DNA from: Dysgonomonas sp. Marseille-P4361 | Lineage (GTDB): Bacteria > Bacteroidota > Bacteroidia > Bacteroidales > Dysgonomonadaceae | Assembly: GCF_900343125.1 (NCBI RefSeq) | Contig: NZ_OPYL01000001.1 | Coordinates: 682,001-746,000 of the forward strand | Length of the DNA: 64,000 bases | Reading direction: 5' to 3' | Part shown: positions 26,537 to 42,099 of the stretch, piece by piece | How positions within the stretch are numbered: position 1 is the stretch's first letter | Layout: every line of letters begins with the position of its first letter | Notes under the pieces: generated by a model | Told to the model about the DNA's origin: nothing | Seen by the model: the letters and a program-made list of their open reading frames with translations, nothing else | Databases searched by the model: none | Program-made: the position numbers and the translations under genes

Positions 26537-26609
26537 GATTCCGTAGCTCAGCAGGTAGAGCACATCACTTTTAATGATGGGGTCCTGGGTTCGAGCCCCA
26601 GCGGGATCA
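26537..26609 (+). tRNA. tRNA-Lys (anticodon UUU)
   Basis: A full cloverleaf can be drawn. Acceptor GATTCCG pairs with CGGGATC (one G-U), the D-arm is TAGCTCAGCAGGTAGAGC, the anticodon stem CATCA/TGATG carries loop CTTTTAA (anticodon TTT), and the T-arm is CTGGG-TTCGAGC-CCCAG. The 3' CCA is not encoded. The 3' end is the integration site of the downstream element. Confidence 0.97.
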
Positions 26610-26613
26610 CGAA
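26592..26613 (+). repeat. Left attachment site (attL) within the tRNA-Lys 3' end
   Basis: The T-arm 3' half and acceptor (GAGCCCCAGCGGGATCACGAA) recur at 42079-42099 as GAGTCCCAGCAGGATCACGAA, with two differences. The exact shared core GGATCACGAA covers the tRNA's 3' end plus flank. Insertion at this point keeps the tRNA intact on the left side. Confidence 0.75.
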
Positions 26614-26620
26614 GCAAATT

Positions 26621-26657
26621 AGCTAAGTAACTAGATAACAGTTATTTAGCTTTTTTG
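26621..26657 (+). terminator. Terminator downstream of tRNA-Lys (element-borne)
   Basis: AGCTAAGTAACT (26621-26632) pairs with AGTTATTTAGCT (26640-26651), 12 bp with one G-U, followed by TTTTTG. It lies just inside the element, so the insertion appears to supply the tRNA with a replacement terminator. Confidence 0.8.
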
Positions 26658-26667
26658 TTTTTAATGA

Positions 26668-26690
26668 TTTGTGGCTGTATTTGTGGCTGT
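26668..26690 (+). repeat. Left arm-type repeats (two copies of TTTGTGGCTGT)
   Basis: TTTGTGGCTGT at 26668-26678 and again at 26680-26690, 12-base period, about 60 bases inside the left end. The same word occurs near the integrase at the right end (41955-41965, with a variant at 41944). Probable integrase arm-binding sites. Confidence 0.6.
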
Positions 26691-27020
26691 TATGGCTTTA
26701 AATGGATTTTTGTTAAGTCAAAAGTAAGCACAAACGCACTATGAGTAGAGAATATAATAAGTACACTTACTATCTCTAAAGTAGTTTCAATCACAACTAT
26801 ATAGTTTTTCGTGCTAACTCTGATGCCAAAAATGATTAAATGAGCGTTTTTGCAGATTTTGAGACGAATACATCCTCTCTAGGCTTATATCTCTATTTTC
26901 CTATACCCTTATATCAAAAAAACAAAGAAAGCGTCTTAAATCGCTTTAAAATGCCTCATATCAAAAAAACCGCCTAAACTTAATTAGACGGCTATAATTA
27001 TTCAGTTATTATTATTTAGA
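26691..27020. other. Left-end non-coding stretch of the element
   Basis: About 330 bases without a convincing gene. AT-rich, with short repeats (CATATCAAAAAAACCGCC-like words near 26910-26975) but no clear promoter. A hairpin-like AGTTATTATTATTTAGATTATTTATTTG stretch precedes the minus-strand gene end. Confidence 0.4.
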
Positions 27021-27284
27021 TTATTTATTTGTTATTACTGCACCGCCAAAGAACGGCATATCTGGGTGTTTCTGCTTCCATTCGTTGATAAGGTCTAACC
27101 CTTCGTCAGTGCCTAAGAACTCTTCAAAAGAGCCTGCAATGCCTAAGGCTCGCACCATATCATCTGCATTGATGCGAATTTCGCCGGTAAGTTTGTTTTT
27201 TATGAACGTTACTGGATGCCCTTCGAAATGTGAGGTGTAATACTCGTTTATCCAGTCCTCTGAGTTTTTTGTTAAATCTGCCAT
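27021..27284 (-). CDS. 87-residue element protein, antirepressor-like N-terminus (tentative)
   Basis: 87 residues, acidic. The stretch VTFIKNKLTGEIRINADDMVRALGIAGSFEEFL resembles the start of Bro-N/KilA-N-type phage antirepressors, where a protein states the presence of a gene-control domain (FNAKDVCEALG-like pattern). The rest is not recognised. It begins 1 base after the stop of the upstream 59-residue gene, so it belongs to a three-gene minus-strand run facing away from the XRE repressor. The resemblance is by eye only. Confidence 0.5.
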   Translation of the reverse strand: MADLTKNSEDWINEYYTSHFEGHPVTFIKNKLTGEIRINADDMVRALGIAGSFEEFLGTDEGLDLINEWKQKHPDMPFFGGAVITNK

Positions 27285-27285
27285 G

Positions 27286-27465
27286 TTATTTAGTTGTTAT
27301 TTCATAAGTTGAATACTCGTACACGCTACCGATCTCTAGTATATTCGATACATCGTACGTATGTGCTACAGTTGCCTCTTTAATATCACTCAATTCGATA
27401 CCTAATATTTTTGCTATTTGCGAACGTGTTAGATTCTTATTTTTTGCTGTAAATTTCTGTTCCAT
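27286..27465 (-). CDS. 59-residue helix-turn-helix-like element protein
   Basis: Encodes 59 residues beginning MEQKFTAKNKNLTRSQIAKILG; NLTRSQIAKILGIELSDI reads as a short helix-turn-helix, followed by a beta-like tail ending SVYEYSTYEITTK. The stop is 1 base before the next gene and 2 bases separate it from the upstream 53-residue gene, indicating an operon. Function unknown; a small regulator is plausible. Confidence 0.5.
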   Translation of the reverse strand: MEQKFTAKNKNLTRSQIAKILGIELSDIKEATVAHTYDVSNILEIGSVYEYSTYEITTK

Positions 27466-27467
27466 AA

Positions 27468-27629
27468 TTATTTAATTTTAAAGTGTTTATTGATTAATCT
27501 ACTCGCATTGTATAGGTTAGCTCCGATAAAGCCGTAATATAGCAGCATAGTGCTGACCAATTCGCCTGTGTACTCTGCTGTCATTAACAGTAAGCACAGC
27601 ATAAAATAGATTGCTGATAGTGGTTTCAT
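27468..27629 (-). CDS. 53-residue small membrane protein
   Basis: Encodes 53 residues beginning MKPLSAIYFMLCLLLMTAEY, two hydrophobic helices with a basic C-terminus (NKHFKIK). First gene of the three-gene minus-strand run. The probable promoter is TATATTTG on the minus strand at 27667-27674. No family recognised. Confidence 0.45.
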   Translation of the reverse strand: MKPLSAIYFMLCLLLMTAEYTGELVSTMLLYYGFIGANLYNASRLINKHFKIK

Positions 27630-27666
27630 GTGATTGTTATTTGATCCGTGATGTTAAATAATGCCG

Positions 27667-27674
27667 CAAATATA
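27667..27674 (-). promoter_or_regulatory. -7 promoter box for the divergent three-gene run
   Basis: CAAATATA on the + strand, i.e. TATATTTG on the minus strand, 38 bases before the start at 27629. No good -33 box. Confidence 0.45.
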
Positions 27675-27743
27675 ACACTAGGAGTCACGTCTAACGAATT
27701 TTTCAGTACTTATTTTGACTTATCATGTTATTTTAATCTCAAA

Positions 27744-27799
27744 TTGTGATCCTTCGAGTTAATTATTATATCTTTGCATTGTAACATTATAGATCACAA
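27744..27799 (+). promoter_or_regulatory. Promoter and symmetric operator of the XRE repressor gene
   Basis: A -7 box TATCTTTG (27769-27776) sits between two halves of an inverted repeat, TTGTGATC (27744-27751) and GATCACAA (27792-27799). The second half ends 3 bases before the ATG. This layout suits autorepression by the XRE protein and perhaps control of the divergent genes. Confidence 0.55.
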
Positions 27800-27801
27800 A
27801 T

Positions 27802-28053
27802 ATGAATTATAGAATTAAAGACTTATGTAAGGAAAAAGGAATAACAATCGGGGAATTATCGGATAAGGTAGGAATTGCACGGGAAAGTATAAGCCGTATT
27901 ATCGGAGGTAACAATACCTCAACTGATACCCTCCAAAAGATAGCAACCGCCTTAAATGTACCCATATCGGCTCTATTCGATGAAGCACACCCCAGTAACA
28001 TAATTAAATGTCCTAATTGTGGTACTGAGTTGGAGGTTAAGAAAAAAGAATAA
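27802..28053 (+). CDS. XRE-family repressor with a C-terminal CPNCG knuckle
   Basis: 83 residues. Residues 1-58 form an XRE/cI-type helix-turn-helix (ITIGELSDKVGIARESISRIIGG, then TDTLQKIATALNVPISALF). The tail holds IIKCPNCGTELEVKKKE, half of a zinc ribbon, which may bind metal as a dimer. It is transcribed away from three small element genes, like the control region of a temperate phage or satellite. Probable master repressor of the element. Confidence 0.85.
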   Translation: MNYRIKDLCKEKGITIGELSDKVGIARESISRIIGGNNTSTDTLQKIATALNVPISALFDEAHPSNIIKCPNCGTELEVKKKE

Positions 28054-28133
28054 AAAAATCCAATACTGATATTTTGTATTGGATTATGGTATGGAAAAAA
28101 GTGTTTAGAAAAATTTCATTTTGTTGTTTCTAA

Positions 28134-28403
28134 AAACAGGGAATCATAACAATCAGCGAAAGCGGCAAAGTGAATATCCCAAGCGGTAATGTGTGGATGT
28201 TCGAAATGGAGTTGGTGGAGTTGTTCGGGGTGATAGCCCCGACACTCCGAGCCGTTATCAAAGCAATATACAAGAGTGGAACACTATCTGCTACTACAAC
28301 CCAACGATGTGATTTAGCCACTCCTAAGAGTTGGGCTACATTCTATAATCTTGAGATGATTATTGCCCTTGCGTTTAGGTTGAACACATACGAGGCAAGC
28401 TAG
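28134..28403 (+). pseudogene. Remnant of a small Bacteroides element protein
   Basis: The frame reads GIITISESGKVNIPSGNVWMFEMELVELFGVIAP, later FYNLEMIIALAFRLNTYEAS, a pattern I know from a family of about 110-residue proteins in Bacteroides mobile elements (WMxxxEIAELFGV... YNLEMIxALAFRI). Here no ATG precedes the homologous part and an in-frame stop lies at 28131, and the C-terminus is cut short at LNTYEAS. A GTG at 28170 could start a shortened product, but decay is more likely. Confidence 0.5.
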
Positions 28404-28660
28404 ATAAGGCAAAAGGTGGTGAAAAGTTTATGCCAGCGGGAAGAGAATGGGATTAGTCTGCTTATATCATTGCAAGGTATAGGACAGCAAATCTCACCTC
28501 AAATGAGTTGAATTTCAATCTATAAAGTCGAAGCTTTGCTATTCTCACGAACGGCAAAGCTTCTTAGCTAATGTTTTATGTGTATATATCTATCAAAGGG
28601 ATGATAGAATTTCATTATAGTTCTACAACCGAATAAAGGGTGTAGAACATAATAATTGCT
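28404..28660. other. Non-coding spacer with a 9-bp hairpin
   Basis: No gene seen. AAGCTTTGC (28531-28539) and GCAAAGCTT (28554-28562) form a perfect 9-bp stem. It lies downstream of the fimbrial operon on the minus strand and may terminate or stabilise that transcript, though no T-run follows. Confidence 0.4.
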
Positions 28661-31078
28661 TTAATAAACCTTTACACCATCAACTGTTACATTCAATCTT
28701 TCTGCTGGCATTGAATTTTTATTTCCCCAAAGAGTAGTTCCTGTATTGATACCCTCGTTATTAATCTCATAACCATTAACAGTTGTTCCAGAGACTATTA
28801 CATTGTATGTTGGAGTATTGCCATATGGAGCATCACCTATTTCAATAGCGGCTTTCTTGCTTGTCAAACCTCCCTTATCGTTGAAAATGCAACTTTTCAC
28901 AGTCAAATTGACAGTGTTAGCTCCTTCTTGGTAAAGAAGGAGTGCTTTACCATCTGAGTTAAATTTACATCTGTCAAATTCTATCTTTTTTGCTCCCCAA
29001 GTCCAAATATTGTAAACATCGCCAGACACATTAAAAGTACAGTTCTCAAACTTGCTGTCACCATAAAGTGTGTATGTACCATTGATAACACAATTCTTGT
29101 AAGTACCGTTGCAACGAGCATAGCCAATATAAGTTGAGCTGTTTGTTGTTATAGTAATGCTTTCGAAAGTGACTGTAGAACCATCCAAGCTGTAGTCACT
29201 ATTTTCATAACCAGAACCACCAGTTACAGCGACTTTTACATCTTCAGGATTACCTGTACCTATAAATGTCAGAGTCTTTCCTTTTGCTGATGATGGTATT
29301 ACATATTCACCTCGTGTCAATTTTATTTTAGTCGCTCCATCAGAAATTGCATTTGTAATACCTTCTTCGCTTGAAGCAATATAATTGCCATTGATAGTGA
29401 TTTTGCAATTTTTACCAAGTTCACCATTTTTTAGGTTGTATAGAATATTACCGCTTTCACTGCCTGCATCAAAGCCGCTTGCTGTACAGTTTTCAATGTT
29501 CACGTTGTAAGGATTCAAATTGGAATCAATTTCAATGGCAGCCTTACCTGTTACGGGTTCTGTTGCCTTGAATACACAATCTTTAAAGTTTACCGTATAC
29601 CATTCTGAACCATTTTCTTTGTATACCAAAACGGATCTACCTGCTGAATTGAACATGCAGTTTGTAAATGTGGCTGTTTTGGCTCCGTATGTCCATACGT
29701 TATAGTTATCGTTCGATTCTTGATTGAAGACGCAATTGGTGAATGTTTCTTCAATGCCATAAGCCCAATATACGTTTTCAAAAACGCAATCGGTGTAATT
29801 TAAGACATTTGCGTGCGGGAATCCAACGTAGTCTTCATTCTCTTTCATGATGGTAACATTTCTGAAATCAACAGATGTATTATGAAGAGCTACGCCATCT
29901 GACAAGTCAATCTTCGCATCTTTGTTTACACCAGAAATTTTCAAAGTCTTATCACTTACAGAAGGCATCTTCCACAAACCTGCAGCCAATTCGATTTCTG
30001 TTGCGCCCGCATTAATAGCAGCTTCTATCGTTTCGTAATATGTATTATTTGCTTTTACACCACCATTATTGTATTCACCATCATAAATCGGGTCGATTGT
30101 GATATTGAATGTAACATTACCTGTCAAAATCTTACCAATAATGTTAGTACGCCAGTTACGCTGAACGGGAACAGCGTTAAGACCTTCGCTAAAGTTGATA
30201 GAATTACCACTTTTAGGAGCAAAAGTGAAATCCAATTTTTCCAACGTAGCCTTGTCGTAACCTGTAGTTTTATCATTGGCCAGTATGTAACTCATTGAGA
30301 GGTAAACATAATTCTCCTTTGTGCCGTCCTTATCAAAATCAACATTCAATGTTTCAGGAGTTGCGAACTGTGCAGGAATAATATCAAAACCATACTCGAC
30401 ATTTTGTTCTCCTCCAACTTCACCTGTAAGCAAATTGATAGATGTTGCAGCATTTTTAATAGTTACCATTGATTTTTCTATCTCAATTCCTGAAGCCTTA
30501 GCTGCATCCCAATCTGTCTGGTAAACACCTACGTTAATCTGAGCAAAAGGACGTTTCAATACAACATCAATTTCAGTATTACCTGTAACAGTAAATGTTT
30601 CGGCTTTGAAGAATGCATCACGAGTTTCATCGTTATTAAGGCCGTTATAATCAATAGTTACATTTGTCAATTCTTCTGTGTCGTAAGCTGTACAGTTTGG
30701 ATTCTGAGCCCAAAATGCTACTGTATATTGCTGACCTTTAGCTAAGGTAATGGCTACTTTTTCAGTAAGACCATTTTCGAAAGCACTATTATTAACAATC
30801 TGTCCATTTACATCTGTATTTGCAATTGTTTCAATGAGTTCACCACTGGCATTATAAACTGCATATACCAACTTCTTTGCACCTGTACCGTCACTGATGG
30901 CACGGGTAGCGATACCACCACTGATGGCACGGGTAGCGAAACCACCTTCGGCTGCAAGCGAGAACGTCACCTGAGCCTCATTCCCTGACTGAACTACATC
31001 CTGTTCGTCATTCGAACACGATGTTGCGAACAGCATACCGGCTGCTGCGAACATACCTAACAATAATTTCTTGTTCAT
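28661..31078 (-). CDS. Fimbrillin-like lipoprotein fused to a duplicated beta-helix region
   Basis: 805 residues with a lipoprotein signal (GMFAAAGMLFATSCSND, Cys21). Residues about 30-340 look like a Bacteroidales fimbrillin-like (DUF6562-type) domain: EAQVTFSLAAEGGFATRAI, AKKLVYAVYNASGELIE, YTVAFWAQNP, DAFFKAETFTV, VLKRPFAQINVGV. Residues about 350-790 are a right-handed beta-helix made of two homologous modules (near 420-560 and 665-790), each with NVWTYGAK / NIWTWGAK, then a KAAIEI strand and asparagine-rich turns. Such a fusion suggests a surface adhesin with a carbohydrate-binding or spacer stalk. Last gene of the fimbrial run; 268 bases separate it from the preceding gene. Confidence 0.75.
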   Translation of the reverse strand: MNKKLLLGMFAAAGMLFATSCSNDEQDVVQSGNEAQVTFSLAAEGGFATRAISGGIATRAISDGTGAKKLVYAVYNASGELIETIANTDVNGQIVNNSAFENGLTEKVAITLAKGQQYTVAFWAQNPNCTAYDTEELTNVTIDYNGLNNDETRDAFFKAETFTVTGNTEIDVVLKRPFAQINVGVYQTDWDAAKASGIEIEKSMVTIKNAATSINLLTGEVGGEQNVEYGFDIIPAQFATPETLNVDFDKDGTKENYVYLSMSYILANDKTTGYDKATLEKLDFTFAPKSGNSINFSEGLNAVPVQRNWRTNIIGKILTGNVTFNITIDPIYDGEYNNGGVKANNTYYETIEAAINAGATEIELAAGLWKMPSVSDKTLKISGVNKDAKIDLSDGVALHNTSVDFRNVTIMKENEDYVGFPHANVLNYTDCVFENVYWAYGIEETFTNCVFNQESNDNYNVWTYGAKTATFTNCMFNSAGRSVLVYKENGSEWYTVNFKDCVFKATEPVTGKAAIEIDSNLNPYNVNIENCTASGFDAGSESGNILYNLKNGELGKNCKITINGNYIASSEEGITNAISDGATKIKLTRGEYVIPSSAKGKTLTFIGTGNPEDVKVAVTGGSGYENSDYSLDGSTVTFESITITTNSSTYIGYARCNGTYKNCVINGTYTLYGDSKFENCTFNVSGDVYNIWTWGAKKIEFDRCKFNSDGKALLLYQEGANTVNLTVKSCIFNDKGGLTSKKAAIEIGDAPYGNTPTYNVIVSGTTVNGYEINNEGINTGTTLWGNKNSMPAERLNVTVDGVKVY
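30892..30945. repeat. 27-bp tandem repeat in the fimbrillin-like gene
   Basis: CACTGATGGCACGGGTAGCGA occurs at 30892-30912 and again at 30919-30939, a 27-bp period that keeps frame and encodes repeated (A)TRAIS(G/D)G after the lipidation site. In-frame units could vary linker length. Confidence 0.7.
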
Positions 31079-31346
31079 TTCTGAAAATTTTAATTATTAT
31101 ACAAAATAGTTTTACTTTAATTTCTTGTTTTTAATGTTTTCCGCATTCACTCGGATTGCCGAAACCATTGTCGAGGGCTGTTCCACTTATTCAGAACGGG
31201 GATTCATCATCAATCTGTCGTATCCTGCGAGTTGCAGAATGAAAGGTCTTGGAATAGCTCCATCCCTTTGTGACTGTTAGTTGGTTTTCTGTCTCTTGTT
31301 CGGCTTTTTAACTTGTTATTAGGGTTATACATATTTTGAAATTCTC
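31079..31346. other. 268-bp spacer between the two fimbrillin-like genes
   Basis: No gene is seen. The last 65 bases before the downstream start are AT-rich, while the middle is of more even composition and resembles decayed coding sequence (minus-strand reading ...TMVSAIRVNAENIKNK). It may hold the promoter or an mRNA leader of the 805-residue gene. Confidence 0.35.
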
Positions 31347-32168
31347 TTATTCCACTGTAAATCCTCCTGCTATGTTGCTTCGTTGGTTGGCTTCAATCTC
31401 AACCTGTGGGAACACCACTGTCTTTGATGTTTGTTCATCATCGGTCAATGTCAATTCCGCTACAATCTGCATCGCTGTTGTCGAAGCAAACAGATAGCCC
31501 ATAGCGAGATAATTATATGCTGTACCATCAGCCGAGAATGTTTCGGTGGTGGTGTTGCTGAAATTCCAAGTGAAATCAACTGTTCCGCTTACAGTATTGG
31601 TAAATGGGTGGAATGTGTCGGGAGCGGACTTTGCCGTAAATGATGCCTGCATCACTTTTCCCATAGTTCCCACATTGATTTGAGCCAACGGGCGGACAAG
31701 TTCAATGGAGTAACTGCTGCTTCCTGTTATGATAATATCTTCTTTTGTCGCAAAGAATGCATCTGATGCTTCTGCCTTGGAGAATGTTATCGGATTTGGC
31801 AGAGTGTTCATCTTGATAGCGGTCAGATCATCTATGTCGTAGATGTTCCGATTGCTGTTATACGCCCAAAAGATAAAACTGTATGTCTGATTCTGAGCCA
31901 ATGCAAGGGTGATATTTACAGAAGTGCCGTTAATGGCAAACTCCTTTCTCTCAAGTTCCTCCTTTTGGGTGTTGAACACACCCACCACAAGGGTATTCAC
32001 CTGTTCTGCCTTGCCGAAAGAGCGTGTACGGGTGTCAGTCGGCAGCGTTGCGGTAAAGTTTACTTCTACATCGCCCGTTTCCTGTAAGTCATCGGAACAG
32101 GACTGTATGCCCACCACCGTAAGGGCAAGCATCATCAATATCTGTATGTTATGCAGTAGATTCTTCAT
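31347..32168 (-). CDS. Fimbrillin-like lipoprotein
   Basis: 273 residues with a lipoprotein signal (LALTVVGIQSCSDD, Cys24). The domain has the same outline as the N-terminal part of the 805-residue protein: VNFTATLPTDTRTRS, VNTLVVGVFNTQKEELE, YSFIFWAYNSN, ASDAFFATKEDI and VRPLAQINVGT. It is therefore a DUF6562/Mfa-type fimbrial or surface subunit. It lies 12 bases after the DUF5119 gene. GC content is visibly higher than in the core genome. Confidence 0.75.
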   Translation of the reverse strand: MKNLLHNIQILMMLALTVVGIQSCSDDLQETGDVEVNFTATLPTDTRTRSFGKAEQVNTLVVGVFNTQKEELERKEFAINGTSVNITLALAQNQTYSFIFWAYNSNRNIYDIDDLTAIKMNTLPNPITFSKAEASDAFFATKEDIIITGSSSYSIELVRPLAQINVGTMGKVMQASFTAKSAPDTFHPFTNTVSGTVDFTWNFSNTTTETFSADGTAYNYLAMGYLFASTTAMQIVAELTLTDDEQTSKTVVFPQVEIEANQRSNIAGGFTVE

Positions 32169-32180
32169 TGTTCTTTGCTG

Positions 32181-33242
32181 TTAGGGGAAAATCAGGTTAT
32201 GGTCTCCGTCAAAGTCGGGATTGATGGTTACACCTCCCGATGCTTCCGACATCAGGAACATACCCGTCATGATGGTATGGTGGCTTCGCTTCAACGGCAC
32301 TTCTATCGGCTCGGTCAGGGAGAGCTGTGTTCCCTCATTGTCGTAAATGCCAATCTGTACCGTCACAGCCGACTTCTTGCCGTTCACAAACACATAGTCA
32401 AAACCTATCGAGGTTTCCGTATCGGAAAGTCTCTGCAAGGTGGACTCGAACATCACTCCCGTAGATGAATCCACGGGCTTGTCAGTGTACATACTGTATG
32501 CGTGTGGCATAAATCCTACATAGTAGAACACCACCTTGTAATCCTCGATATTTACGGCTCTTGTCGGGGTGTCATCTGCCGATGCCGACTTGTTGGCGTT
32601 GGCTTTGGAGGCAATACGGGTTGCTTCCTTGTCGATGAACTCCACCACATCGTTAGTGACGAATTCGAACTTGGCAAGAGGTCGTTGCATCGCAACACTG
32701 AGCGTGTCGGGCAGACGCTCTATATCATCCGCTACGAGTTCAATGCTGTTCGTGCCTCTGAAAGCGTCACGATGGTCAGTATTTCCCTTGTGGTCGCCCT
32801 GCAACATAATCTCAGCGAAATTGTCGGCATTGTGGAAATGGGTATCACCGCTTGTCTTCACCAAGTCAGAACACACCATCACATTGTAGTTACCCGGCAG
32901 TACATCAAGCGTCACTTCGTGGTCGTAACCTTCGGCAATGTTCTTTGTGAACACGAACTCCTGCGTATAGTCCTGCATCGTGCGTTGTTTATCCGATACG
33001 GGATAGGTGCGGACGATGTAGCGTATCTTACCGTAGTCCTGATGGTTGTCGTATGTGTCACCCAAGCCTTGCTCGATGACCGATGTGCCATCGTAGATAT
33101 GCTCCCATTCGGTCATATCCGTTTCATAATTGAGGCGAAGATGCATTTTCACAAACTCCGGTGTTTCTGGCCATTCGTGGACATCACAGGCTGAGAACAG
33201 CAACAGAGGCATACATATAATAAGGTATAGAATCTTTCTCAT
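32181..33242 (-). CDS. DUF5119 fimbrial-locus lipoprotein
   Basis: 353 residues with a lipoprotein signal (IICMPLLLFSACDVHEWPE, Cys19). The mature start VHEWPETPEFVKMHLRLNYETDMTEWEHIYDG is characteristic of DUF5119 proteins, which accompany DUF3575 and fimbrillin genes in Bacteroides. A role as anchor or accessory subunit (Mfa2/FimB-like) is inferred from context. Its start overlaps the end of the DUF3575 gene by 4 bases, so translation is coupled. Confidence 0.78.
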   Translation of the reverse strand: MRKILYLIICMPLLLFSACDVHEWPETPEFVKMHLRLNYETDMTEWEHIYDGTSVIEQGLGDTYDNHQDYGKIRYIVRTYPVSDKQRTMQDYTQEFVFTKNIAEGYDHEVTLDVLPGNYNVMVCSDLVKTSGDTHFHNADNFAEIMLQGDHKGNTDHRDAFRGTNSIELVADDIERLPDTLSVAMQRPLAKFEFVTNDVVEFIDKEATRIASKANANKSASADDTPTRAVNIEDYKVVFYYVGFMPHAYSMYTDKPVDSSTGVMFESTLQRLSDTETSIGFDYVFVNGKKSAVTVQIGIYDNEGTQLSLTEPIEVPLKRSHHTIMTGMFLMSEASGGVTINPDFDGDHNLIFP

Positions 33243-34507
33243 CGCTTGCCTCCTTTCTTCTTTAGGTCAAACGAATATGAGAACGATACCGCAGCTTGGT
33301 CTATACCCCAATAGGTCTTCTTGATGCTCTCAATCATCAATCCGTCCTTTGTAATAGGTGTATTGTGGAACTTGTCATAATGACGGGAATAGACACCTGC
33401 ACCGAATGAGAACTCCATCCACCAACGGTTGTTCCTGCTGACAGGCAAGCGATAGCCGACACTCACACCACCTCCGATGGACGGTGTCTTACGGTTGTGG
33501 TCCTGGTAGCGGTAGTCGCCGTCAAAGGAGAAATTGTAAGATGCCAGTCCGAAATGTGCTCCTGCAAAGAAGCCGTCGTTGTTTTCCGATAGCCAATAGC
33601 GGAACTCGGGCTGTACGCTGAATGTTCTGAACTTGATGGTGGTCTTGAAATAGTCCCAAGCCGAATAATAAACGGGCAATGTGAACGACCAGTGCTTTGC
33701 CAAGTCGATTTCTGCTGCAACATTGGCAATGCCCATTCCCAAGCCGATGGCATTGGTCTTGATATGTAGTTTATGAGTCCATTCCTCCACATCGGGAACA
33801 ACGGGGGCCACAATTGACGTTGTGTCTGGTTTGATTTCAACGACTTCAACAATTGGCTCCTCCTTAATGGTATCGGGTACAATCACAGGCTCCTGAACGG
33901 GTGGAAGTTCCTGCTTGTATGTTACGAATACGGCACAGGCATTTCGCATACGCCCGAAGAAGAGTTTGTTCATCTGCTGCCACACCTTACCGTTATCCAA
34001 CTGCTTCAACTTTACGATGCGGTTGTCAATATGGGTATTCGGATGATGATAATCCACCAATAGGGATTCTTCCTCCAATATGGAGATTACTTCATCCTTA
34101 TGTATCAATCCCGAATCCTCAATCTGTGATTTCAGATAATCCCACGGAATGTAGCTGTCATTACGGGTAATGAGGCTGTCGGGAATATCCACCTCCTTGC
34201 GGACAAGTCTTTCGAGTGCGGTAAGGCGACCTCGTGCCAGCTTGCGGTTGAGTTGGTCACTGCCTTCGGGGGATGCCGCTCCACAGAAGGATATTTCCAC
34301 GATGTTGATTGTACTGTCCTGACGGATATTCCGTAGGAACTCGATGATTTCCTGCATACGGGCGGCATTGTCCGAGTATGCGGAATCTATGACAGTACTG
34401 TTCACACGGAAATCGACACAGATTTCCGTGCGGCTCTCTTGCGAATGTGCAACACCCACACCAAACAGTAAGAGAATCAGTGTTATACAATATTTCTTAA
34501 TGTGCAT
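33239..34507 (-). CDS. OmpA-like / DUF3575 outer-membrane protein
   Basis: 422 residues with a cleavable signal (ITLILLLFGVGVAHSQE). Residues 25-115 carry an OmpA-like segment (SFCGAASPEGSDQLNRKLARGRLTALERLV), then a proline/valine/glutamate-rich linker near 205-240. The C-terminal 180 residues (KLHIKTNAIGLGMGIANVAAEIDLAKHWSFTLPVYYSAWDY split by short turns) match DUF3575, a predicted beta-barrel in Bacteroidetes fimbrial loci. Probably forms or scaffolds the outer-membrane platform. First intact gene of the cargo operon; GC-rich relative to the core. Confidence 0.78.
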   Translation of the reverse strand: MHIKKYCITLILLLFGVGVAHSQESRTEICVDFRVNSTVIDSAYSDNAARMQEIIEFLRNIRQDSTINIVEISFCGAASPEGSDQLNRKLARGRLTALERLVRKEVDIPDSLITRNDSYIPWDYLKSQIEDSGLIHKDEVISILEEESLLVDYHHPNTHIDNRIVKLKQLDNGKVWQQMNKLFFGRMRNACAVFVTYKQELPPVQEPVIVPDTIKEEPIVEVVEIKPDTTSIVAPVVPDVEEWTHKLHIKTNAIGLGMGIANVAAEIDLAKHWSFTLPVYYSAWDYFKTTIKFRTFSVQPEFRYWLSENNDGFFAGAHFGLASYNFSFDGDYRYQDHNRKTPSIGGGVSVGYRLPVSRNNRWWMEFSFGAGVYSRHYDKFHNTPITKDGLMIESIKKTYWGIDQAAVSFSYSFDLKKKGGKR

Positions 34508-35080: not shown

Positions 35081-35143
35081 AATTTAGAGTTTTAGTTATA
35101 ACACCCTGAAATTAAATAGAATATTTATCATAAAAAAATAATC

Positions 35144-35236: not shown

Positions 35237-35239
35237 CAA

Positions 35240-35268
35240 AAAAGGTGCTACCTATTACAGATAGCACC
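35240..35268 (-). terminator. Terminator of the minus-strand element operon
   Basis: GGTGCTA (35244-35250) and TAGCACC (35262-35268) form a 7-bp stem; on the minus strand it is followed by a run of T (TTTTTTG). It lies downstream of the 121-residue gene. Confidence 0.7.
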
Positions 35269-35290
35269 TACAAACTAAAAACGCTAAGGT

Positions 35291-35656
35291 CTAGACTGTT
35301 GCTACTTTTCGCCAAATAGGGTTAAGATCATCCATATTTTCGCAAATCTGGACTCCTCCTCCATAGGCATAAGTAAGTGCGTCTAGTGATTTTAAGGGAA
35401 TACCATCTTCCGAAAGTCTTTCTACTCTGACACCTACAGAACCGTCCTCATTTTCTACTAGCCACTTACACTCCTCGCAAGGACAATCTGCTATCTTTCT
35501 CTGAGCAATGAAAGAACTTCTCAATACTACAGGCTGCCTTATTTCGGATAAGGTTTCTTTTTGCTCACCATTAATCAATAAAACTATAGTGCTGTCGTCA
35601 AGTTCTGAGACTTCCATCTTAAGGCCATGATATATTTTTTCGTCTAATATTCTCAT
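35291..35656 (-). CDS. 121-residue element protein, unknown
   Basis: 121 residues, no signal peptide. The centre holds a cysteine cluster (IADCPCEECKWLV), which may bind metal. The N-terminal half is beta-like. No family recognised. It follows the 54-residue gene by 1 base and closes the minus-strand replication run before a terminator. Confidence 0.55.
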   Translation of the reverse strand: MRILDEKIYHGLKMEVSELDDSTIVLLINGEQKETLSEIRQPVVLRSSFIAQRKIADCPCEECKWLVENEDGSVGVRVERLSEDGIPLKSLDALTYAYGGGVQICENMDDLNPIWRKVATV

Positions 35657-35657
35657 A

Positions 35658-35822
35658 TTATTTTTCTGTTTTAGTTTTTTCGGATTCTACTATGTGTTTT
35701 ATAAATTGATTTAACTGCCTACGTGTAAACCATATCATCTCTATTTCTTCGTTTTCCCAATATTTAACCGGCTTATAATCCTCTGAAAAGTCCAGAGCTG
35801 CTTCAAAATAGTTCTTACTCAT
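35658..35822 (-). CDS. 54-residue element protein, unknown
   Basis: 54 residues beginning MSKNYFEAALDFSEDYKPVK, with a basic and charged C-terminus (TRRQLNQFIKH...EKTKTEK). Its start overlaps the stop of the terminase-small-subunit-like gene in an ATGA, so it is translationally coupled. No function recognised. Confidence 0.5.
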   Translation of the reverse strand: MSKNYFEAALDFSEDYKPVKYWENEEIEMIWFTRRQLNQFIKHIVESEKTKTEK

Positions 35823-36292
35823 TTCTTTTTATTTAATTCGTTTTTAGCTTTTTGATATAGTACACACTCACTGCATTTTAGCGGTCTGTAGAAGCTGACT
35901 TTAGATTCTTCTGTTTCTTCATCTTGCTTTTTCATCTGCTGAAGGTCTGCAAGTTTCATCAATATCTCTGACTTCCTTCTAGGCTCAGTTTCTTGATTAG
36001 CTAATAGATTCAACTCTCGAATAACATCATCCTTGCTGCGTGTATCTGATTCAGCCGTACTTTGTTCTATAGCTGTGAACCTTCTTGCTCTTTCTACGTC
36101 TAAAAAAGCTTGAACATCAGGGCTATTGATCCACCTACTAGACTGCACATTTAGACTGCTTTTGTTGGCTGTGAGTTTTTTGCCTCTACTGGCTAGGTAC
36201 GCATTAAGTCGATCATTGGTATAGATATAGCCTATCAAGGCAAACTTCTCTAAGTCGGATAGTTTAGATATAAGTGTTTCTTTTTCGGTCAT
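35819..36292 (-). CDS. Terminase-small-subunit-like protein (tentative)
   Basis: 157 residues. The N-terminal part DLEKFALIGYIYTNDRLNAY followed by LASRGK, then SSLNVQSSRWINSPDVQAFLDVERARR, matches the layout of phage small terminase subunits: a helix-turn-helix-like start with repeated chain members (NASxAYxxAG) and a 'SRWxxxPDVQxxL' block. The C-terminus continues DDVIRELNLLANQETEPRRKSEILMKLADLQ, also typical of TerS, and ends with Cys residues (CSECVLYQKAK). Known phage satellites use their own TerS to redirect packaging. The match is by eye and needs profile search. It is coupled to the next gene by ATGA. Confidence 0.5.
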   Translation of the reverse strand: MTEKETLISKLSDLEKFALIGYIYTNDRLNAYLASRGKKLTANKSSLNVQSSRWINSPDVQAFLDVERARRFTAIEQSTAESDTRSKDDVIRELNLLANQETEPRRKSEILMKLADLQQMKKQDEETEESKVSFYRPLKCSECVLYQKAKNELNKKK

Positions 36293-36345
36293 GTCGTGTT
36301 AATATAGGTTTTAGTAAAAAATCTATTTCTCAGTAGAAATGGCGA

Positions 36346-36383
36346 TATAGGAGGAGGTGAAAATGGGATCACCCCCACCTATA
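36346..36383. repeat. Imperfect hairpin upstream of the terminase-like gene
   Basis: TATAGGAGGAGGTG (36346-36359) pairs with CACCCCCACCTATA (36370-36383), 12 of 14 positions, around a 10-base loop. It lies in the gap between the terS-like gene (start 36292) and the 239-residue gene (end 36390). It could end transcription, or be a recognition site; no T-run follows. Confidence 0.45.
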
Positions 36384-36389
36384 CGATTG

Positions 36390-37109
36390 CTATTGATCTA
36401 CTAATATGCGGTGTGTATTATTTATGATATACTGCAAGTTCACAATTCCCTGTTTCGAGTCTGTACTCAATCCGCAAGCAACAAACAGAGGTTCGATTCC
36501 ATTCATTAAGCTAGGGATAACATGCTGTGCTTTAGTACTGTATTCTGCAAAGCCGTTTTCGATCTCAAAGTTTCTGACCTTTACAAGTGTTTCTGTTGCT
36601 TCATTCAATAGCTTCACATACTCTCTATCTGTGTCTGTGAAGGTTCTGATTCCGATAGTTTCGATATGTTGTTCTACTTCTTTTAAATCGAATATTATAC
36701 GATTTTTAACCTCAACCAATCTAATCGGGATAGACTGTAATTGATTAAACAGCCAGATATTGATATTTTCTAGTCTGTTGGCTATATCATCAAATGATTG
36801 CTTTACTCGTTGCATTTCTGCTTTTGGAATAAACTTCAAAGTCTTAGTATAATCAAGATAAGCCTTATTCATTTCGACTCTAATAGCGTCCTTTGAGCCT
36901 CTAATCTTATTTACAAGGGTTAAGCTAAATTCAAGTCCTTCAGTCTCTATCTGTTCCTTTACGTCGTTATTTAGCTTAGTTTCAATATCTGTAAGCCTCT
37001 CTCTGTAAGATGACCTCTTTGCTTCATCTATCCATTGTTGTGGTAATTCAACTCTTTTAAATGTGATCTTGTTTTTCATTTTCTCTGCGTTTTTTTTGTT
37101 TGTATTCAT
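36390..37109 (-). CDS. 239-residue coiled-coil element protein, unknown
   Basis: 239 residues, mostly helical and rich in Lys, Glu and Asn, with heptad-like stretches (AEMQRVKQSFDDIANRLENI, VEQHIETIG). The ATG at 37109 has a good AAAGGAA ribosome-binding site 6 bases upstream; an alternative ATG lies at 37079. No recognised domain. It overlaps the preceding 57-residue ORF by 53 bases. Probably a structural or nucleic-acid-handling accessory of the replication module. Confidence 0.6.
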   Translation of the reverse strand: MNTNKKNAEKMKNKITFKRVELPQQWIDEAKRSSYRERLTDIETKLNNDVKEQIETEGLEFSLTLVNKIRGSKDAIRVEMNKAYLDYTKTLKFIPKAEMQRVKQSFDDIANRLENINIWLFNQLQSIPIRLVEVKNRIIFDLKEVEQHIETIGIRTFTDTDREYVKLLNEATETLVKVRNFEIENGFAEYSTKAQHVIPSLMNGIEPLFVACGLSTDSKQGIVNLQYIINNTHRILVDQ

Positions 37110-37230
37110 TGTATTTCCTTTTAACTATTTCTTCTGGTGACAATTCAGCATCATTGATCATTGGTAGTTTGCCTTCTCTTTGTTTGCGCTCCTTATATTC
37201 AGCGAAAGTGTTATTGCTATTCATCATCAT
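37057..37230 (-). CDS. 57-residue basic ORF overlapping its neighbours
   Basis: 57 residues starting with three consecutive ATG codons (37230, 37227, 37224), reading NSNNTFAEYKERKQREGKLP then INDAELSPEEIVKRKYNEYKQKKRR. Strongly basic. Its start overlaps the end of the 83-residue gene and its end overlaps the 239-residue gene. The dense packing fits element genes; expression is unproven. Confidence 0.4.
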   Translation of the reverse strand: MMMNSNNTFAEYKERKQREGKLPMINDAELSPEEIVKRKYNEYKQKKRRENEKQDHI

Positions 37231-37468
37231 TTATATTTTTATCTTTTTCAAATTCAAATATCTTTTTTCGTCTATTGTAGTATTTAGAAATAAATGCTTC
37301 CCTTTTCTGTTTGTTGCCGAAATAGAACATAGTTTGGCTATCTATTTTCAACTTATACATCTTAGAAATATCAGGTGATTTGATGCCTAATTCATCTAAT
37401 CGCTCTCGATCTCGCTGGGCTTCTAAGACCGCAGACGATTCAACATCTTTGAGGTAGACTGTACTCAT
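37217..37468 (-). CDS. 83-residue element protein, unknown
   Basis: 83 residues, highly charged (LEAQRDRERLDELGIKSPDI, NKQKREAFISKYYNRRKKIFEF). No recognised fold; the basic central helix suggests nucleic-acid contact. It overlaps the end of the upstream helix-turn-helix gene in an ATGA and the following small ORF, implying coupled translation. Confidence 0.55.
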   Translation of the reverse strand: MSTVYLKDVESSAVLEAQRDRERLDELGIKSPDISKMYKLKIDSQTMFYFGNKQKREAFISKYYNRRKKIFEFEKDKNINDDE

Positions 37469-37623
37469 GCGGGTTGTATTAAGCTGTTCACATCCTCAAC
37501 TCGATATAAAGACCTATTACCCGCCTTATACCTCTTAATCTTGCCATTATTAACCCACGTGTAAAGGGTTCGTTTTGTGATTTTTAGTCTTTTACAGACC
37601 TCTTTTGTAGTTAAGTATTCCAT
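37465..37623 (-). CDS. Small excisionase-type helix-turn-helix protein
   Basis: 52 residues from the ATG at 37623, beginning MEYLTTKEVCKRLKITKRTL and continuing through TWVNNGKIKRYKAGNRSLYR, a complete MerR/excisionase-type winged helix (HTH_17). The frame is open upstream but the added residues are not part of the fold. Such proteins act as recombination directionality factors or local regulators. It is 125 bases downstream of the primase-like gene. Confidence 0.8.
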   Translation of the reverse strand: MEYLTTKEVCKRLKITKRTLYTWVNNGKIKRYKAGNRSLYRVEDVNSLIQPA

Positions 37624-37748
37624 GTTATTTGTGTTAAAGAGAAACCCGACATACAACAGATTAACTGCTATACATCGGGTTTAATACCTCTATGATTATA
37701 CTTAAATATACCTTATTTCCTTAAATTGCACAATAGAGGATTTTAGTA

Positions 37749-38768
37749 CTAAACTAAGGTTAAGTCAAATGTTTTTATCAGTTCAGTTAATGCAGGGTTA
37801 AGTTGTTCCATTGCTTGCAAATCCTTTTCTTTTTGAGTAAGCACCTTAGGAGGTTGTTCTATCTCTCTCTGCTCACTTCTTCTGCGTTCTTTCACCTCAT
37901 CTGCATAAGTTATTCCATAATCGCCAAAGTGCGTGAAAAGCCACTCAAAAGCCGTTTTCCCATGCCTTAAACAATAATCATACTTACTGTCTGTTTCACT
38001 CTGTTTGTAGTTAGGATATAACGCACTAAGTCTGTGAAAATATGATCTACCAGATTCGCCCATTTCACTAGCCAACGCACTAGCGATTTTATACCAGTCT
38101 CCCTCATCACTTGTGATGTCGATGCCTTGTTTTTCGCATTTCTCAACACATATCTCCAGAGGCAAATAATCTTCACTAAAGGTGTGATTGATGCCTGTTT
38201 TATACTCCCTTATAGGCTCATTATAAAGCCTTGTGTACACTTTTGCGTTCTCATTAATGTAAGGGCTAGCATCATAGGAGTAATACCGCAAACGGTCTGT
38301 GTTCGAGCATTTTTCATCTACAAAAATATCGTACCTTTTAAAATATTGTGCAAATGCTTTATAGTGCTCTTTGTGCTTACTCGGGTATTTAATTGGAACT
38401 ATACAGAATACTCCGTTGCCACTCACAGATAGTGAGCAATAAAGAACCTCCGAAAACTTAGCTACTAATTTTTTGAAATACTCCCAATCCGTTATATGTG
38501 GATTGTCCGAGCCGTCCACATCTATGCAGATTAGACCGCTATGCTCTATTAGTTTGTTTGATGCACGCTCGCTGAATCTTCCCGATATAGTTATAGCGGG
38601 TAACGTTTCTTTTAATTTGGTGCGTTCTTCTTTGCTGTCGGCTTGTCTGATCTTTTCTACTGTCTCTTTATGTTTGACTGATTGTAAAAAAGCTCTGATC
38701 GAAGCATCTACACCTTTCGTATCTTTACAATTCCAATAAACGGAAACTATCTTATCTAAATATCTCAT
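37749..38768 (-). CDS. VirE_N / PriCT-2 primase-like replication protein
   Basis: 339 residues. Residues 1-180 match the BT4734/VirE N-terminal domain: SIRAFLQSVKHKETVEKIRQ, LPAITISGRFSERASNKLI, HSGLICIDVDGSDNP, SLSVSGNGVFCIVPI, TDRLRYYSYD. The LICIDVDG and SGNGVF motifs are those of archaeo-eukaryotic-primase-like palms. Residues about 210-290 match PriCT-2 (GDWYKIASALASEMGESGRSYF, KHGKTAFEWLF-like). It probably initiates element DNA replication with the ATPase encoded 102 bases upstream. This pair is common in Bacteroides genomic islands. Confidence 0.82.
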   Translation of the reverse strand: MRYLDKIVSVYWNCKDTKGVDASIRAFLQSVKHKETVEKIRQADSKEERTKLKETLPAITISGRFSERASNKLIEHSGLICIDVDGSDNPHITDWEYFKKLVAKFSEVLYCSLSVSGNGVFCIVPIKYPSKHKEHYKAFAQYFKRYDIFVDEKCSNTDRLRYYSYDASPYINENAKVYTRLYNEPIREYKTGINHTFSEDYLPLEICVEKCEKQGIDITSDEGDWYKIASALASEMGESGRSYFHRLSALYPNYKQSETDSKYDYCLRHGKTAFEWLFTHFGDYGITYADEVKERRRSEQREIEQPPKVLTQKEKDLQAMEQLNPALTELIKTFDLTLV

Positions 38769-38785: not shown

Positions 38786-38872
38786 AAGTGTTTCCTCGTT
38801 TCCTGACACTAGGGTCAGGAAACAGGGAAACATAGTTATACTTTCAGAGTATCAACATGTTAAGTGTTTCCT
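38786..38872. repeat. GTTTCC repeats and palindrome between the ATPase and primase genes: candidate origin
   Basis: AAGTGTTTCCT occurs at 38786-38796 and 38862-38872. Between them GTTTCCTGAC (38798-38807) and GTCAGGAAAC (38814-38823) form a perfect 10-bp palindrome with a 6-base loop, and a further GGGAAACA follows at 38825. Six GTTTCC/GGAAAC words in 90 bases flanking replication genes suggest iterons or an origin; the palindrome could also act as a terminator. Confidence 0.5.
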
Positions 38873-39998
38873 AAGCACTCTCTTTTGTTTCCATCCTCTG
38901 AATCAATTTAGAAACACTACCAGCACTCTTGTACCCAATTATTTCAGCTATCTCTCTTGTAGATTTGCCGTCCGTCTGTAATTGCTTTACTAGTTCATAT
39001 TTCTGCCTGTCAGAGTCGTCGTCATCATTCTTTTTTAGATGCCCAAATGGAACTCTTTCGCCGGTATATTCAAAGGTGAGGTCTTCGGTAAATTTTAACT
39101 TGTAAGATTCATTTTTGGAGTCAGCAGGAAGATAGTTACCTTTTACGCAACATAGATGTTTGTAATTTGTATCAGCCAAATCATTACGCAATTCCAAAAC
39201 TAGTCGCATTTTCCCTTCAAATCCTTGTGAACCGATAAGATTGTGCTTACTTGGTATCTTATCGTCTGTGTGTTTCCCGCAATGATGTAGGAACATTACC
39301 AAACACTTGTATTTATTTGCTAACCGATAGTAGGTATCTAAAAAACATCGCACTTGGTTAACGTCGTTTATTCCTCCGTCGTAAATATCACTAAAGGCAT
39401 CTATAACGATAATGTCCGCTCTTTTATCAGATAGCATAGCCTCAAGCTTGCTGATAAGATTATAGCTATCAAATACAAATCGTAAATTATCCGCTTTTTC
39501 AGGGCTTATTCCTAATCTTTTGTTTTGTTTCTTTGGAGATATAGCCGTGGCATAGCCGTCATCCTCTGTGCTTACATATATTGCAGATTTATGCTCTGTA
39601 TTTAATTTAAAGCCTAGAAACTCATCATTGCCCGCACATACATTTAAACATAGATTTCTAAGGAATGTACTTTTTCCAGTGTCAGAACTCCCCGCAATAG
39701 CTGCTAAGCCTACTTTGTGTATCAATCCATCAACCAACATGGGTATTTCGGTTATTCCCATGTTAAGAAGTTCAGATGCGGTGTAAAACTCCTTATTAAG
39801 AGTAAGCACATCACCTTTATCGTTAGGCTCTTCATCGGTTATGTTATTTGGGGCATTTTCCAGATCAAACAAACCTTTCATCACTTGCCTATCTGCCTCA
39901 AAATCACTACATTTATTCATACTCAATAACATATCCCCATCTACATTAATTACCTTTTGCCCTGCAATCCCTGCGGGGCTTGTTGTGTTTTGCATCAT
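38871..39998 (-). CDS. RepA-like hexameric ATPase/helicase
   Basis: 375 residues. Walker A GSSDTGKS at 103-110, Walker B ADIIVIDAFSDI with Asp200, then MFLHHCGKH with an invariant-type His pair, and GSQGFEGKMRLVLELR, as in RecA-fold RepA helicases (AAA_25). The C-terminal 60 residues form a helix-turn-helix (STREIAEIIGYKSAGSVSKLI), perhaps for origin binding. It overlaps the preceding HTH gene by 4 bases (ATGA). Confidence 0.85.
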   Translation of the reverse strand: MMQNTTSPAGIAGQKVINVDGDMLLSMNKCSDFEADRQVMKGLFDLENAPNNITDEEPNDKGDVLTLNKEFYTASELLNMGITEIPMLVDGLIHKVGLAAIAGSSDTGKSTFLRNLCLNVCAGNDEFLGFKLNTEHKSAIYVSTEDDGYATAISPKKQNKRLGISPEKADNLRFVFDSYNLISKLEAMLSDKRADIIVIDAFSDIYDGGINDVNQVRCFLDTYYRLANKYKCLVMFLHHCGKHTDDKIPSKHNLIGSQGFEGKMRLVLELRNDLADTNYKHLCCVKGNYLPADSKNESYKLKFTEDLTFEYTGERVPFGHLKKNDDDDSDRQKYELVKQLQTDGKSTREIAEIIGYKSAGSVSKLIQRMETKESA

Positions 39999-40258
39999 GC
40001 TGTTTGTGTTTGTGTTTTTCCTGTTAATACTTCAATCTCCCTCGCTAATGTTTCTTCATTGAAACGAATGTGTTTTCCACCCCATAAGTGGATAGCTGTA
40101 ACTTTACCGCTCTTTCGGTATTCGGATAAAGTTGTTCTACTAATGCGATAGATCGCACATACTTCTTTGACTGTAAGTAGTTTTTTTCTGCCATATTCAT
40201 TTTTTTTAAGCAGTGAATAAAAAGCAGCTTCAGAGAGGTTTTGAAAATAAAAAGACAC
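39995..40258 (-). CDS. Excisionase-type helix-turn-helix protein
   Basis: 87 residues. LLTVKEVCAIYRISRTTLSE followed by YRKSGKVTAIHLWGGKHIRF is an excisionase/MerR-type winged helix. It lies between the integrase and the ATPase gene, the usual place for a recombination directionality factor. A leader of about 25 residues precedes the domain; Met at residue 1 is the only good start. It overlaps the ATPase gene by 4 bases. Confidence 0.82.
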   Translation of the reverse strand: MSFYFQNLSEAAFYSLLKKNEYGRKKLLTVKEVCAIYRISRTTLSEYRKSGKVTAIHLWGGKHIRFNEETLAREIEVLTGKTQTQTA

Positions 40259-40608
40259 TACTTATCAGTATATTACAACTTATACATATAAGATTTAACA
40301 CTTTTTATATTGCAGATTAAAATATAGGTTGTATATTTGTTTCTGAAATAGAAGTGTTAGTGATAGCATTCTTTTTGTATCCGTTTTTTTGCCTTTACTA
40401 AAGCGGATATATTTCAAGATAGCCTCTCTTGGCTACACGTTAATTAATGAAACAACGAAGAAGAGCAAAACTTTGGTAGAGTGGTGCCCTTTTTCGCATG
40501 TCCACATAAGTACAAGTATAATAAAAATTTCCATACTGTGCAATACTTGTCAAATAAAGTTTTCAACATTTTTGAATTTTTCCCATTTACTCCCATAACT
40601 ATCTTATT
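40259..40608. other. 350-bp spacer between excisionase and integrase genes
   Basis: No gene found. Composition is AT-rich. Short inverted words (TATCCG...CGGATA around 40378-40409, CAAGATAGCC/GGCTA near 40418-40436) occur. It probably holds the promoter of the replication operon on the minus strand; no full consensus is seen. Confidence 0.4.
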
Positions 40609-41886
40609 TTAAAGTTTTTCCGAAATCATTATTGCTTGCTCATTATCCGAAAGACAAATATACCTCCTGAATGTTTTCTCGCTCGTATGTCCCGAATAGT
40701 ACATCAGCTCGCTTGTTGTAAATTTCCCTGTACGATATAATATAGTCAATGCCGATCTTCTTGCCGTGTGTGTTGTTATGAGATTGCATTTCTCTGTAGT
40801 TTCTTTAATAATTTTACCCCCTCTCACGGTTTCAGTTGTAAATGGCTCTACTATGCCAGCCATACGGCAAATGGTCTTAATGTGTCTATTTATAAGAACA
40901 TCGGAATTGCTCCCTAGTTTTGGTAGATCATAATTCCATCGCTCTAATATTGCAGTAGCTTTATCCCCGTCTATAAATGGAACTTCAACTTCTTTTTTGG
41001 TCTTTTGCTGATAAATCCATAGTGCTAATTTCCCATTCTTCAATGTAACAATATCCTCTTTGGTTATTCGGTTATAATCTGAGACACGTTGTGCCGTATA
41101 ACAGCCGATCAAGAATATATCACGCACTTTTAATAACATATCATCGGATAACTCTAAATTATATAAGGCATCCAATTCCTGCCTATCTAAATACGGTCTT
41201 TTACCTTTTGCAGTTGGAAAGTTCTTCGAAAATTTGATAAAGTCTCTATTGTCATGCACCTTGTCTTCACATGCATAGTTTAAGAATGCTTTAAGTGTAG
41301 ATATACGTGTTTTCAATGTCTCTGAGGTGAAATTTTTCTCAATCGTGAGATAGTCTACAAATCGGCTGTAAACATCATTATCCACCTCCGTAAAGGTTAA
41401 TTTTCTATTATATACTTCTTCTTGAAACTCGTTCCAATTACCTGAAAATGATTTCCAATTCTTTAACGTGCCATGACTATAGTTTGTCCCTCGATCGGTC
41501 TTTCTTATTCCTGTTTTCATTTGCTCCATGAGAAAGGGCAGATATTCGTGCATCCGTGTTGGGATATTGGCTTTTGATACTTTTTTAGTTTTAGCCTGCG
41601 ATATTATTATTCTAACATCTTCATCCTCTATTTTTCCGTATTTAGCTAAGTGTAATTCTATGTTATTTTTTATTTCCTCTAATTGGCTTTTCAATATGTC
41701 ATATCTGACCGTCTCGGCTTGTGGTTTATTGTAGTATGAAGTAAACCAACCTTTTTTGGTGTTCCATATATCGGTAGGAATTTTTACACCGGTGGAAAGC
41801 CTGACACGCCAATTACTGCCTAATATATTTACATTTATAGAGGCTTCTTTTTTTGTTGATCTTAATAAAAAATTAACTGTTGCCAT
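40609..41886 (-). CDS. Tyrosine-type integrase of the tRNA-Lys element
   Basis: 425 residues from the ATG at 41886 (MATVNFLLRSTKKE); the frame opens at 41925 but the shorter start matches Bacteroidetes integrases. N-terminal arm-binding region (1-45), core-binding domain about 110-215, catalytic domain about 230-425 with Arg267 (TAQRVSDYNR), Lys295 (QQKTKKEVEVP), His373-x-x-Arg376 (THTARR), His400 (YYSGHTSEKTF) and Tyr409. All catalytic residues are intact. It sits 190 bases from the right att site and points inward. Confidence 0.92.
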   Translation of the reverse strand: MATVNFLLRSTKKEASINVNILGSNWRVRLSTGVKIPTDIWNTKKGWFTSYYNKPQAETVRYDILKSQLEEIKNNIELHLAKYGKIEDEDVRIIISQAKTKKVSKANIPTRMHEYLPFLMEQMKTGIRKTDRGTNYSHGTLKNWKSFSGNWNEFQEEVYNRKLTFTEVDNDVYSRFVDYLTIEKNFTSETLKTRISTLKAFLNYACEDKVHDNRDFIKFSKNFPTAKGKRPYLDRQELDALYNLELSDDMLLKVRDIFLIGCYTAQRVSDYNRITKEDIVTLKNGKLALWIYQQKTKKEVEVPFIDGDKATAILERWNYDLPKLGSNSDVLINRHIKTICRMAGIVEPFTTETVRGGKIIKETTEKCNLITTHTARRSALTILYRTGKFTTSELMYYSGHTSEKTFRRYICLSDNEQAIMISEKL

Positions 41887-41943
41887 AACAAGGAAAATTT
41901 TAATATGAATTAATTGATATGACAAAGATAATGTAATATTTTG

Positions 41944-41965
41944 TTTGTGGTTATTTTGTGGCTGT
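41944..41965 (+). repeat. Right arm-type repeats
   Basis: TTTGTGGTTAT (41944-41954) and TTTGTGGCTGT (41955-41965) are adjacent. The second is identical to the two left-end words. They are in the same orientation on the + strand and about 115 bases inside attR. Confidence 0.6.
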
Positions 41966-42078
41966 AAAATTTTACATAGGTTTACAATAATTTACGCATT
42001 ATTCTTATATTTGTGGGTTATAAGTCATTTACACGTACATAGGTGGACGAAGGTTTACAATACAAAACAATATAGTTT

Positions 42079-42099
42079 GAGTCCCAGCAGGATCACGAA
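42079..42099 (+). repeat. Right attachment site (attR), degenerate
   Basis: GAGTCCCAGCAGGATCACGAA matches the tRNA-Lys 3' end (GAGCCCCAGCGGGATCACGAA) at 19 of 21 positions. It marks the right end of the element inserted at 26613. Confidence 0.75.

Follow-up and report, generated by a model that had tools for sequence, protein, structure and literature searches.

A tRNA-Lys island of Dysgonomonas with a gene set suggestive of a phage satellite

Conjugation is usually given as the main route of gene transfer among gut Bacteroidales, and the mobilizable elements of Bacteroides of the NBU (non-replicating Bacteroides unit) type combine an integrase and primase-type front with a tRNA target. Among phage satellites, Gram-negative phage-inducible chromosomal islands (PICIs) such as EcCICFT073 and PmCI172 are characterised, in PMC6092414, by a size of ~15 kb, a specific att site, an integrase gene (int), a small helix-turn-helix (HTH) regulator and replication genes. 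All of these features are shared by an island in Dysgonomonas sp. Marseille-P4361, which we analysed within a stretch of 64,000 nucleotides (the window; C11:682001-746000 of the 3.30-Mb host genome, G000). The island is probably an integrated phage satellite of the kind that redirects packaging through TerS; the genes that it carries suggest a mode of spread in which it marks its own DNA to be packaged into the particles of another virus. If true, this would extend phage satellites to the Bacteroidales, a group where such elements are little known; no title or abstract on PICI-type satellites in Bacteroidales was found among the literature matches listed, a search that left most subscription papers and preprints outside its scope and does not prove novelty.

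Precise insertion at a tRNA-Lys gene

The island is inserted precisely at tRNA-Lys (TTT; 26537-26610, plus strand; ARAGORN and Rfam RF00005). A 25-nt att copy, GTTCGAGCCCCAGCGGGATCACGAA, lies over the 3' end of the tRNA gene (26589-26613, plus strand) and is common to an empty site in genome G010, and the distal copy (42075-42099, plus strand) is identical to it at 22 of 25 positions, with three mismatches. A general repeat search did not list the pair at its settings; we nevertheless place it above chance because G010 holds the uninterrupted site. Window segments 26480-26613 and 42075-42279 align there to a single continuous stretch of 314 bp, in which they overlap by the 25 att bases, and the flank common to both genomes beyond the distal att is ~180 bp. 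When the whole of G010 was compared, no nucleotide match to the island was found anywhere in it. The att-like repeats that an earlier note on this DNA had described at both ends are thus backed by an empty site. The inserted length from att to att, 15,486 bp (15.5 kb), agrees with the PICI size of about 15 kb, and the G010 site together with an element-borne integrase agrees with the specific att site of PICIs; these criteria come from PMC6092414, and the island is likened to PICIs by gene set and description.

Upstream of the tRNA gene the window has an inverted repeat whose two perfect 20-nt arms are 24 nt apart (26388-26451). Just outside the island are two serine recombinase genes (42296-43432, minus strand; 43812-45185, plus strand), the second of which runs into tRNA-Leu (45150-45234), and neither was found intact in the 20-kb G010 stretch surrounding the empty site.

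Gene content and the TerS-like gene

Pfam was run on 17 open reading frames (ORFs) of the island and the two recombinases outside it, PHROGs on 10 of the 17 and NCBIfam on 10 proteins, and the calls of the latter two broadly agree with Pfam for the island proteins tested. From the distal end inward, a single strand encodes an integrase, an HTH/excisionase-like protein, an AAA ATPase, a primase, a second HTH protein, o83, o239 and a TerS-like protein; the cargo follows, and then a divergent Xre-type gene and o87. The tyrosine integrase adjoins the distal end (40609-41925, minus strand; Phage_integrase 1.2e-13, SAM_5 8e-10), and a partial copy at a contig end in G002 is 91% identical over residues 1-226. 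Next to it lie the HTH_17 excisionase-like gene (39995-40258, minus strand; Pfam 7e-11, phrog_66 1.7e-7, TIGR01764 5.6e-6, below its cut-off) and the gene of the AAA_25, RepA-like ATPase (38871-39998, minus strand; Pfam 5e-20, phrog_239 primase/helicase 1.5e-13), which with the primase-like gene (37749-38768, minus strand; BT4734-like_N 7e-16, PriCT_2 2e-7) gives the island a replication module of its own. The second HTH_17/MerR-type protein (37465-37656, minus strand; 4e-14) matches MerR_1 at 23.9 bits (cut-off 21.6). Set against the AlpA-/MerR-type regulators of Gram-negative PICIs, the island HTH proteins give HTH_17 and MerR_1 matches, and in Pfam none of them matches Phage_AlpA itself. 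The Xre-type regulator (27802-28053, plus strand; HTH_3 4e-12) is 85% identical in C5, a second element of the same genome, and 67% in G004, and its divergent placement resembles that of stl, the divergent repressor gene of the Staphylococcus aureus pathogenicity islands (SaPIs). The integrase, excisionase-like HTH, RepA-like ATPase, primase-like protein (VirE_N/PriCT-2 in its terms) and divergent XRE regulator proposed in the earlier note all hold up in these searches.

The island also encodes a 157-residue protein (35819-36292, minus strand) resembling the terminase small subunit, TerS. Homologues stand in the phage packaging module in three of seven viral contigs, the family adjoins TerL and portal genes in phages, and a structural model of the N-domain is similar to DNA-binding domains of TerS proteins with solved structures. 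No curated family in Pfam, PHROGs or NCBIfam matches the protein, and the TerS-like call is the weakest point. The TerS-like call, which the earlier note had made, therefore finds no terminase match in the profile libraries and is kept on context, because of the phage homologues and the likeness of the modelled N-domain. In one contig (L035:3652-6402), the TerL-like ORF of 916 residues has its best packaging match beginning at residue 421 and holds, by eye, an intein-like stretch.

Among the 17 island ORFs searched with Pfam, and the 10 with PHROGs, there was no match to a relaxase or coupling protein, nor to a capsid, portal or TerL, as the earlier note had reported for the first four; no phage structural or lytic gene was found either, and no tail gene was recognised among the window ORFs tested. 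By these searches it has neither the relaxase of a relaxase-bearing integrative mobilizable element nor the TerL, portal or capsid of a prophage. Four genomes were scanned for PF03432, the only relaxase family searched genome-wide; three of them gave 13 matches in all, none inside the five elements that the four genomes contain (a sixth element, G299, lay outside the search). The nearest, in P. gordonii, is ~19 kb past the integrase of an element with unmapped ends. Relaxase genes in full-length relatives of the island, which by the earlier note would refute its proposal, accordingly did not turn up among these five elements in the PF03432 search.

Several island genes have no assigned family: o83, o239, the TerS-like protein, o121, o133, o87 and a 273-residue protein all fail to reach a curated Pfam cut-off. 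o83 (37217-37468, minus strand) is common to C5 and to two Parabacteroides elements (L080, L081); o239 (36390-37109, minus strand) has homologues in related elements, of which it is a core gene, and a helical predicted structure (mean pLDDT 74); o87 (27021-27284, minus strand) is common to C5 and P. gordonii. o121 (35291-35656, minus strand), without a match in Pfam or PHROGs, occupies a variable slot. Near the tRNA end, a conserved non-coding site of ~135 bp (26741-26876), a candidate cis-acting site, contains the near-palindrome ATAATAAGTNNACTTACTA and is 76-83% identical in G004:C3, G002:C11 and G002:C19; the first copy lies near tRNA-Phe, the second near tRNA-Cys. It may be an origin, a pac site or an integrase arm site.

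Between the core and the Xre-type gene lies a block (28661-34925, minus strand) encoding o133, DUF3575 (1e-33) and DUF6562 (8e-86) proteins and fimbrial-like proteins of 273 and 805 residues; the two DUF proteins we take to be fimbrial-type cargo. The block is absent from C5 and, as the two elements differ between their matching segments, the fimbrial genes are best regarded as cargo in a variable slot. The 805-residue gene contains a tandem 27-bp repeat (30886-30939). A 77-residue ORF nearby (28170-28403, plus strand) matches the PADLOC candidate family PDC-S05 (2e-10). Its homologue in OY726017, a Phocaeicola massiliensis record that is circular and 35 kb long, adjoins an integrase-like gene and genes of fimbrial-like type, and that record shares parts of 28142-29301 with the window. 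The island was found on no plasmid record; OY726017, the one near match, covers 7%, at the fimbrial end.

A family of related elements

The island belongs to a family of such elements. The C5 element spans 9.7 kb and is flanked by two copies of GAGGTTCCTGGCG, one of them within the 3' end of tRNA-Cys. Protein identity to the window is 85-98% for its o83, o239, Xre, o87 and TerS-like products, as against only 30% for the integrase, and its DNA matches window blocks 27006-27298, 27455-28059, 35137-35287 and 35654-37469. Alignment of the third block reveals a conserved hairpin resembling an intrinsic terminator (35238-35269, minus strand) and a conserved ORF for a 30-residue hydrophobic peptide (35144-35236, plus strand). 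In place of o121 and the fimbrial-like block, C5 has a 94-residue gene, a 272-residue tail-tip/host-specificity-like protein (phrog_9413 4e-5, behind two better matches to families of unknown function) and a DUF6169 protein, the first two in the o121 slot.

In Parabacteroides sp. An277 (L081), an 11.5-kb element with 17-nt repeats at 2539 and 14011 lies beside tRNA-Arg and encodes, in order, an integrase, a 253-residue protein, HTH, 102 residues, a DUF3987 protein, a primase (40% identical to that of the window), an endonuclease-type protein of 177 residues, o83, 74 residues, o239, 88 residues and TerS-like. The P. gordonii element (L080, L095) runs from int through 262 residues, HTH_17 (Phage_AlpA 19.2 bits, below the cut-off of 21), 99 residues, a weakly ATPase-like and a primase-like protein (phrog_47 9e-5), 158 residues, 83 residues, o87 and a tape-measure-like protein of 1512 residues (phrog_9959 1e-77) to o83, o239, TerS-like and Xre. 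A Porphyromonadaceae metagenome-assembled genome (L085, G081) holds int, HTH_17, an AAA_25 ATPase, a DUF6371 primase-type gene, a weak o239-type gene (2e-4), a 1371-residue tape-measure-like protein (phrog_20660 7e-9, behind stronger matches to families of unknown function; over two stretches, identity to that of P. gordonii is 34% and 25%), TerS-like and tRNA-Arg. G299 has int, an HTH_17-like gene (0.003), an o239-type gene (1e-12) and the N part of a TerS-like protein (E 2e-12 by profile, in a search of two sequences). Integrase, HTH, o239-type and TerS-like genes thus occur in all six elements, which come from at least three genera, and ATPase and primase genes were seen in four; two att copies were mapped in three.

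In G004:C3 a partial relative at tRNA-Phe, whose TerS region lies beyond the contig, carries Xre and HTH genes and genes of ATPase and primase type. G002 and G029 hold int-TerS pairs, and no other core gene was found within 5 kb either side of these. An element in G059 (L076) includes a weak o239-type gene adjoining a gene that resembles window 45386-46471; by eye it also has genes like those for an integrase, an HTH protein and a primase, and no TerS-like gene was seen in it.

A satellite with such a recognisable core would, if true, add a phage-driven transfer route and explain orphan tRNA islands. Testable strains are available, P. gordonii DSM 23371 carrying a member of the family.

The satellite reading, its rivals and known systems

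We infer induction, excision, replication and packaging of the island as follows. A helper phage, incoming or induced, would relieve the control exerted by the Xre and HTH proteins, and the island would be excised by its integrase with the HTH excisionase and replicated by its own ATPase and primase. The island TerS would then bind a site on the element DNA and pass that DNA to the helper TerL, filling helper heads with island DNA and carrying the fimbrial-like block along as cargo; o83 and o239 might, at a guess, help in a satellite-specific way with packaging, with capsid redirection or with interference against phages. When the host genome was searched for a helper, the phrog_64 portal was not found, and phrog_979 gave only a weak match that contains stops. 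PMC11389934, which also cites NBU-type elements, notes genomes in which satellites or other hitchers occur although no possible helper is present.

On a rival reading, the genes for excision and replication would serve a conjugation-dependent, NBU-like island, moved by an integrative and conjugative element through an unrecognised oriT, its TerS-like protein being a DNA-binding regulator. Five PF03432 relaxases elsewhere in the host genome and Mob-like ORFs, by eye, in the P. massiliensis record that partly shares the fimbrial end (L090:24658-26519) speak for this, but PLSDB types that record as non-mobilizable, no relaxase was found among the ORFs of the island or within the searched elements, and the phage neighbours of the TerS-like family are TerL and portal; we judge it unlikely. 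Somewhat less likely again, each element could be a prophage stripped of its head and tail genes, in keeping with its phage-type genes (TerS-like, tail-tip-like, tape-measure-like) and with a replisome-organiser-like protein in C5 (0.005, below cut-off). Yet the same short gene set, with frames open, recurs across the six elements; decay is not expected to spare integrase, o239 and TerS and yet to remove TerL, portal and capsid in every case, and o239 was not found in phage collections, although the two pattern scans used can miss relatives. Least probable of all is a rarely mobile phage-defence island whose TerS-like protein is a decoy blocking an invader's TerL: a weak match to candidate family PDC-S15 and type III restriction enzyme-like genes (by eye) near the int-TerS pair in G029 point that way, whereas a mobile element is indicated by the integrase, the HTH proteins and the replication genes, set at precise att sites, and interference and packaging are not mutually exclusive in satellites.

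The satellite reading thus stands as the favoured one. The PICI-like character proposed in the earlier note is supported in the sense of "works like", which does not place the island in a named PICI family. More speculatively, and rather doubtfully, the elements may form an undescribed Bacteroidales satellite lineage with an integrase-HTH-o239-TerS core. Certain members would then provide a tape-measure or tail-tip protein of their own and so redirect helper packaging and tail assembly (chimeric particles, of an origin independent of PLEs, the PICI-like elements), and fimbrial cargo would pass between these bacteria by transduction.

Among known systems, the NBU-type elements resemble the island in their integrase/primase-type front and tRNA target, and the island differs from them in that no mobilization gene or relaxase was found. 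The PLEs of Vibrio cholerae and capsid-forming PICIs (cfPICIs) bear a likeness to some of its relatives: PMC12987554, whose main text does not mention Bacteroides or Parabacteroides, reports chimeric tails for PLEs and mentions putative tmp genes in cfPICIs, and the tail-type genes of three relatives (tape-measure-like in L080 and L085, tail-tip-like in C5) may recall such chimeric tails. In the island itself no tail gene (the PLE set includes tmp and tac) was recognised among the ORFs tested; PLEs are further said, in PMC6092414, to have no identifiable packaging module. From the Gram-negative PICIs, some of which carry terS in that account, the island, in which no structural genes were found, is set apart by its Bacteroidales host, the lack of a Phage_AlpA match, a BT4734-like_N primase and the o83/o239 core. 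By description, its proposed mode of spread may be likened to that of SaPIs and other Gram-positive PICIs, in some of which a satellite-borne TerS directs packaging (PMC6092414).
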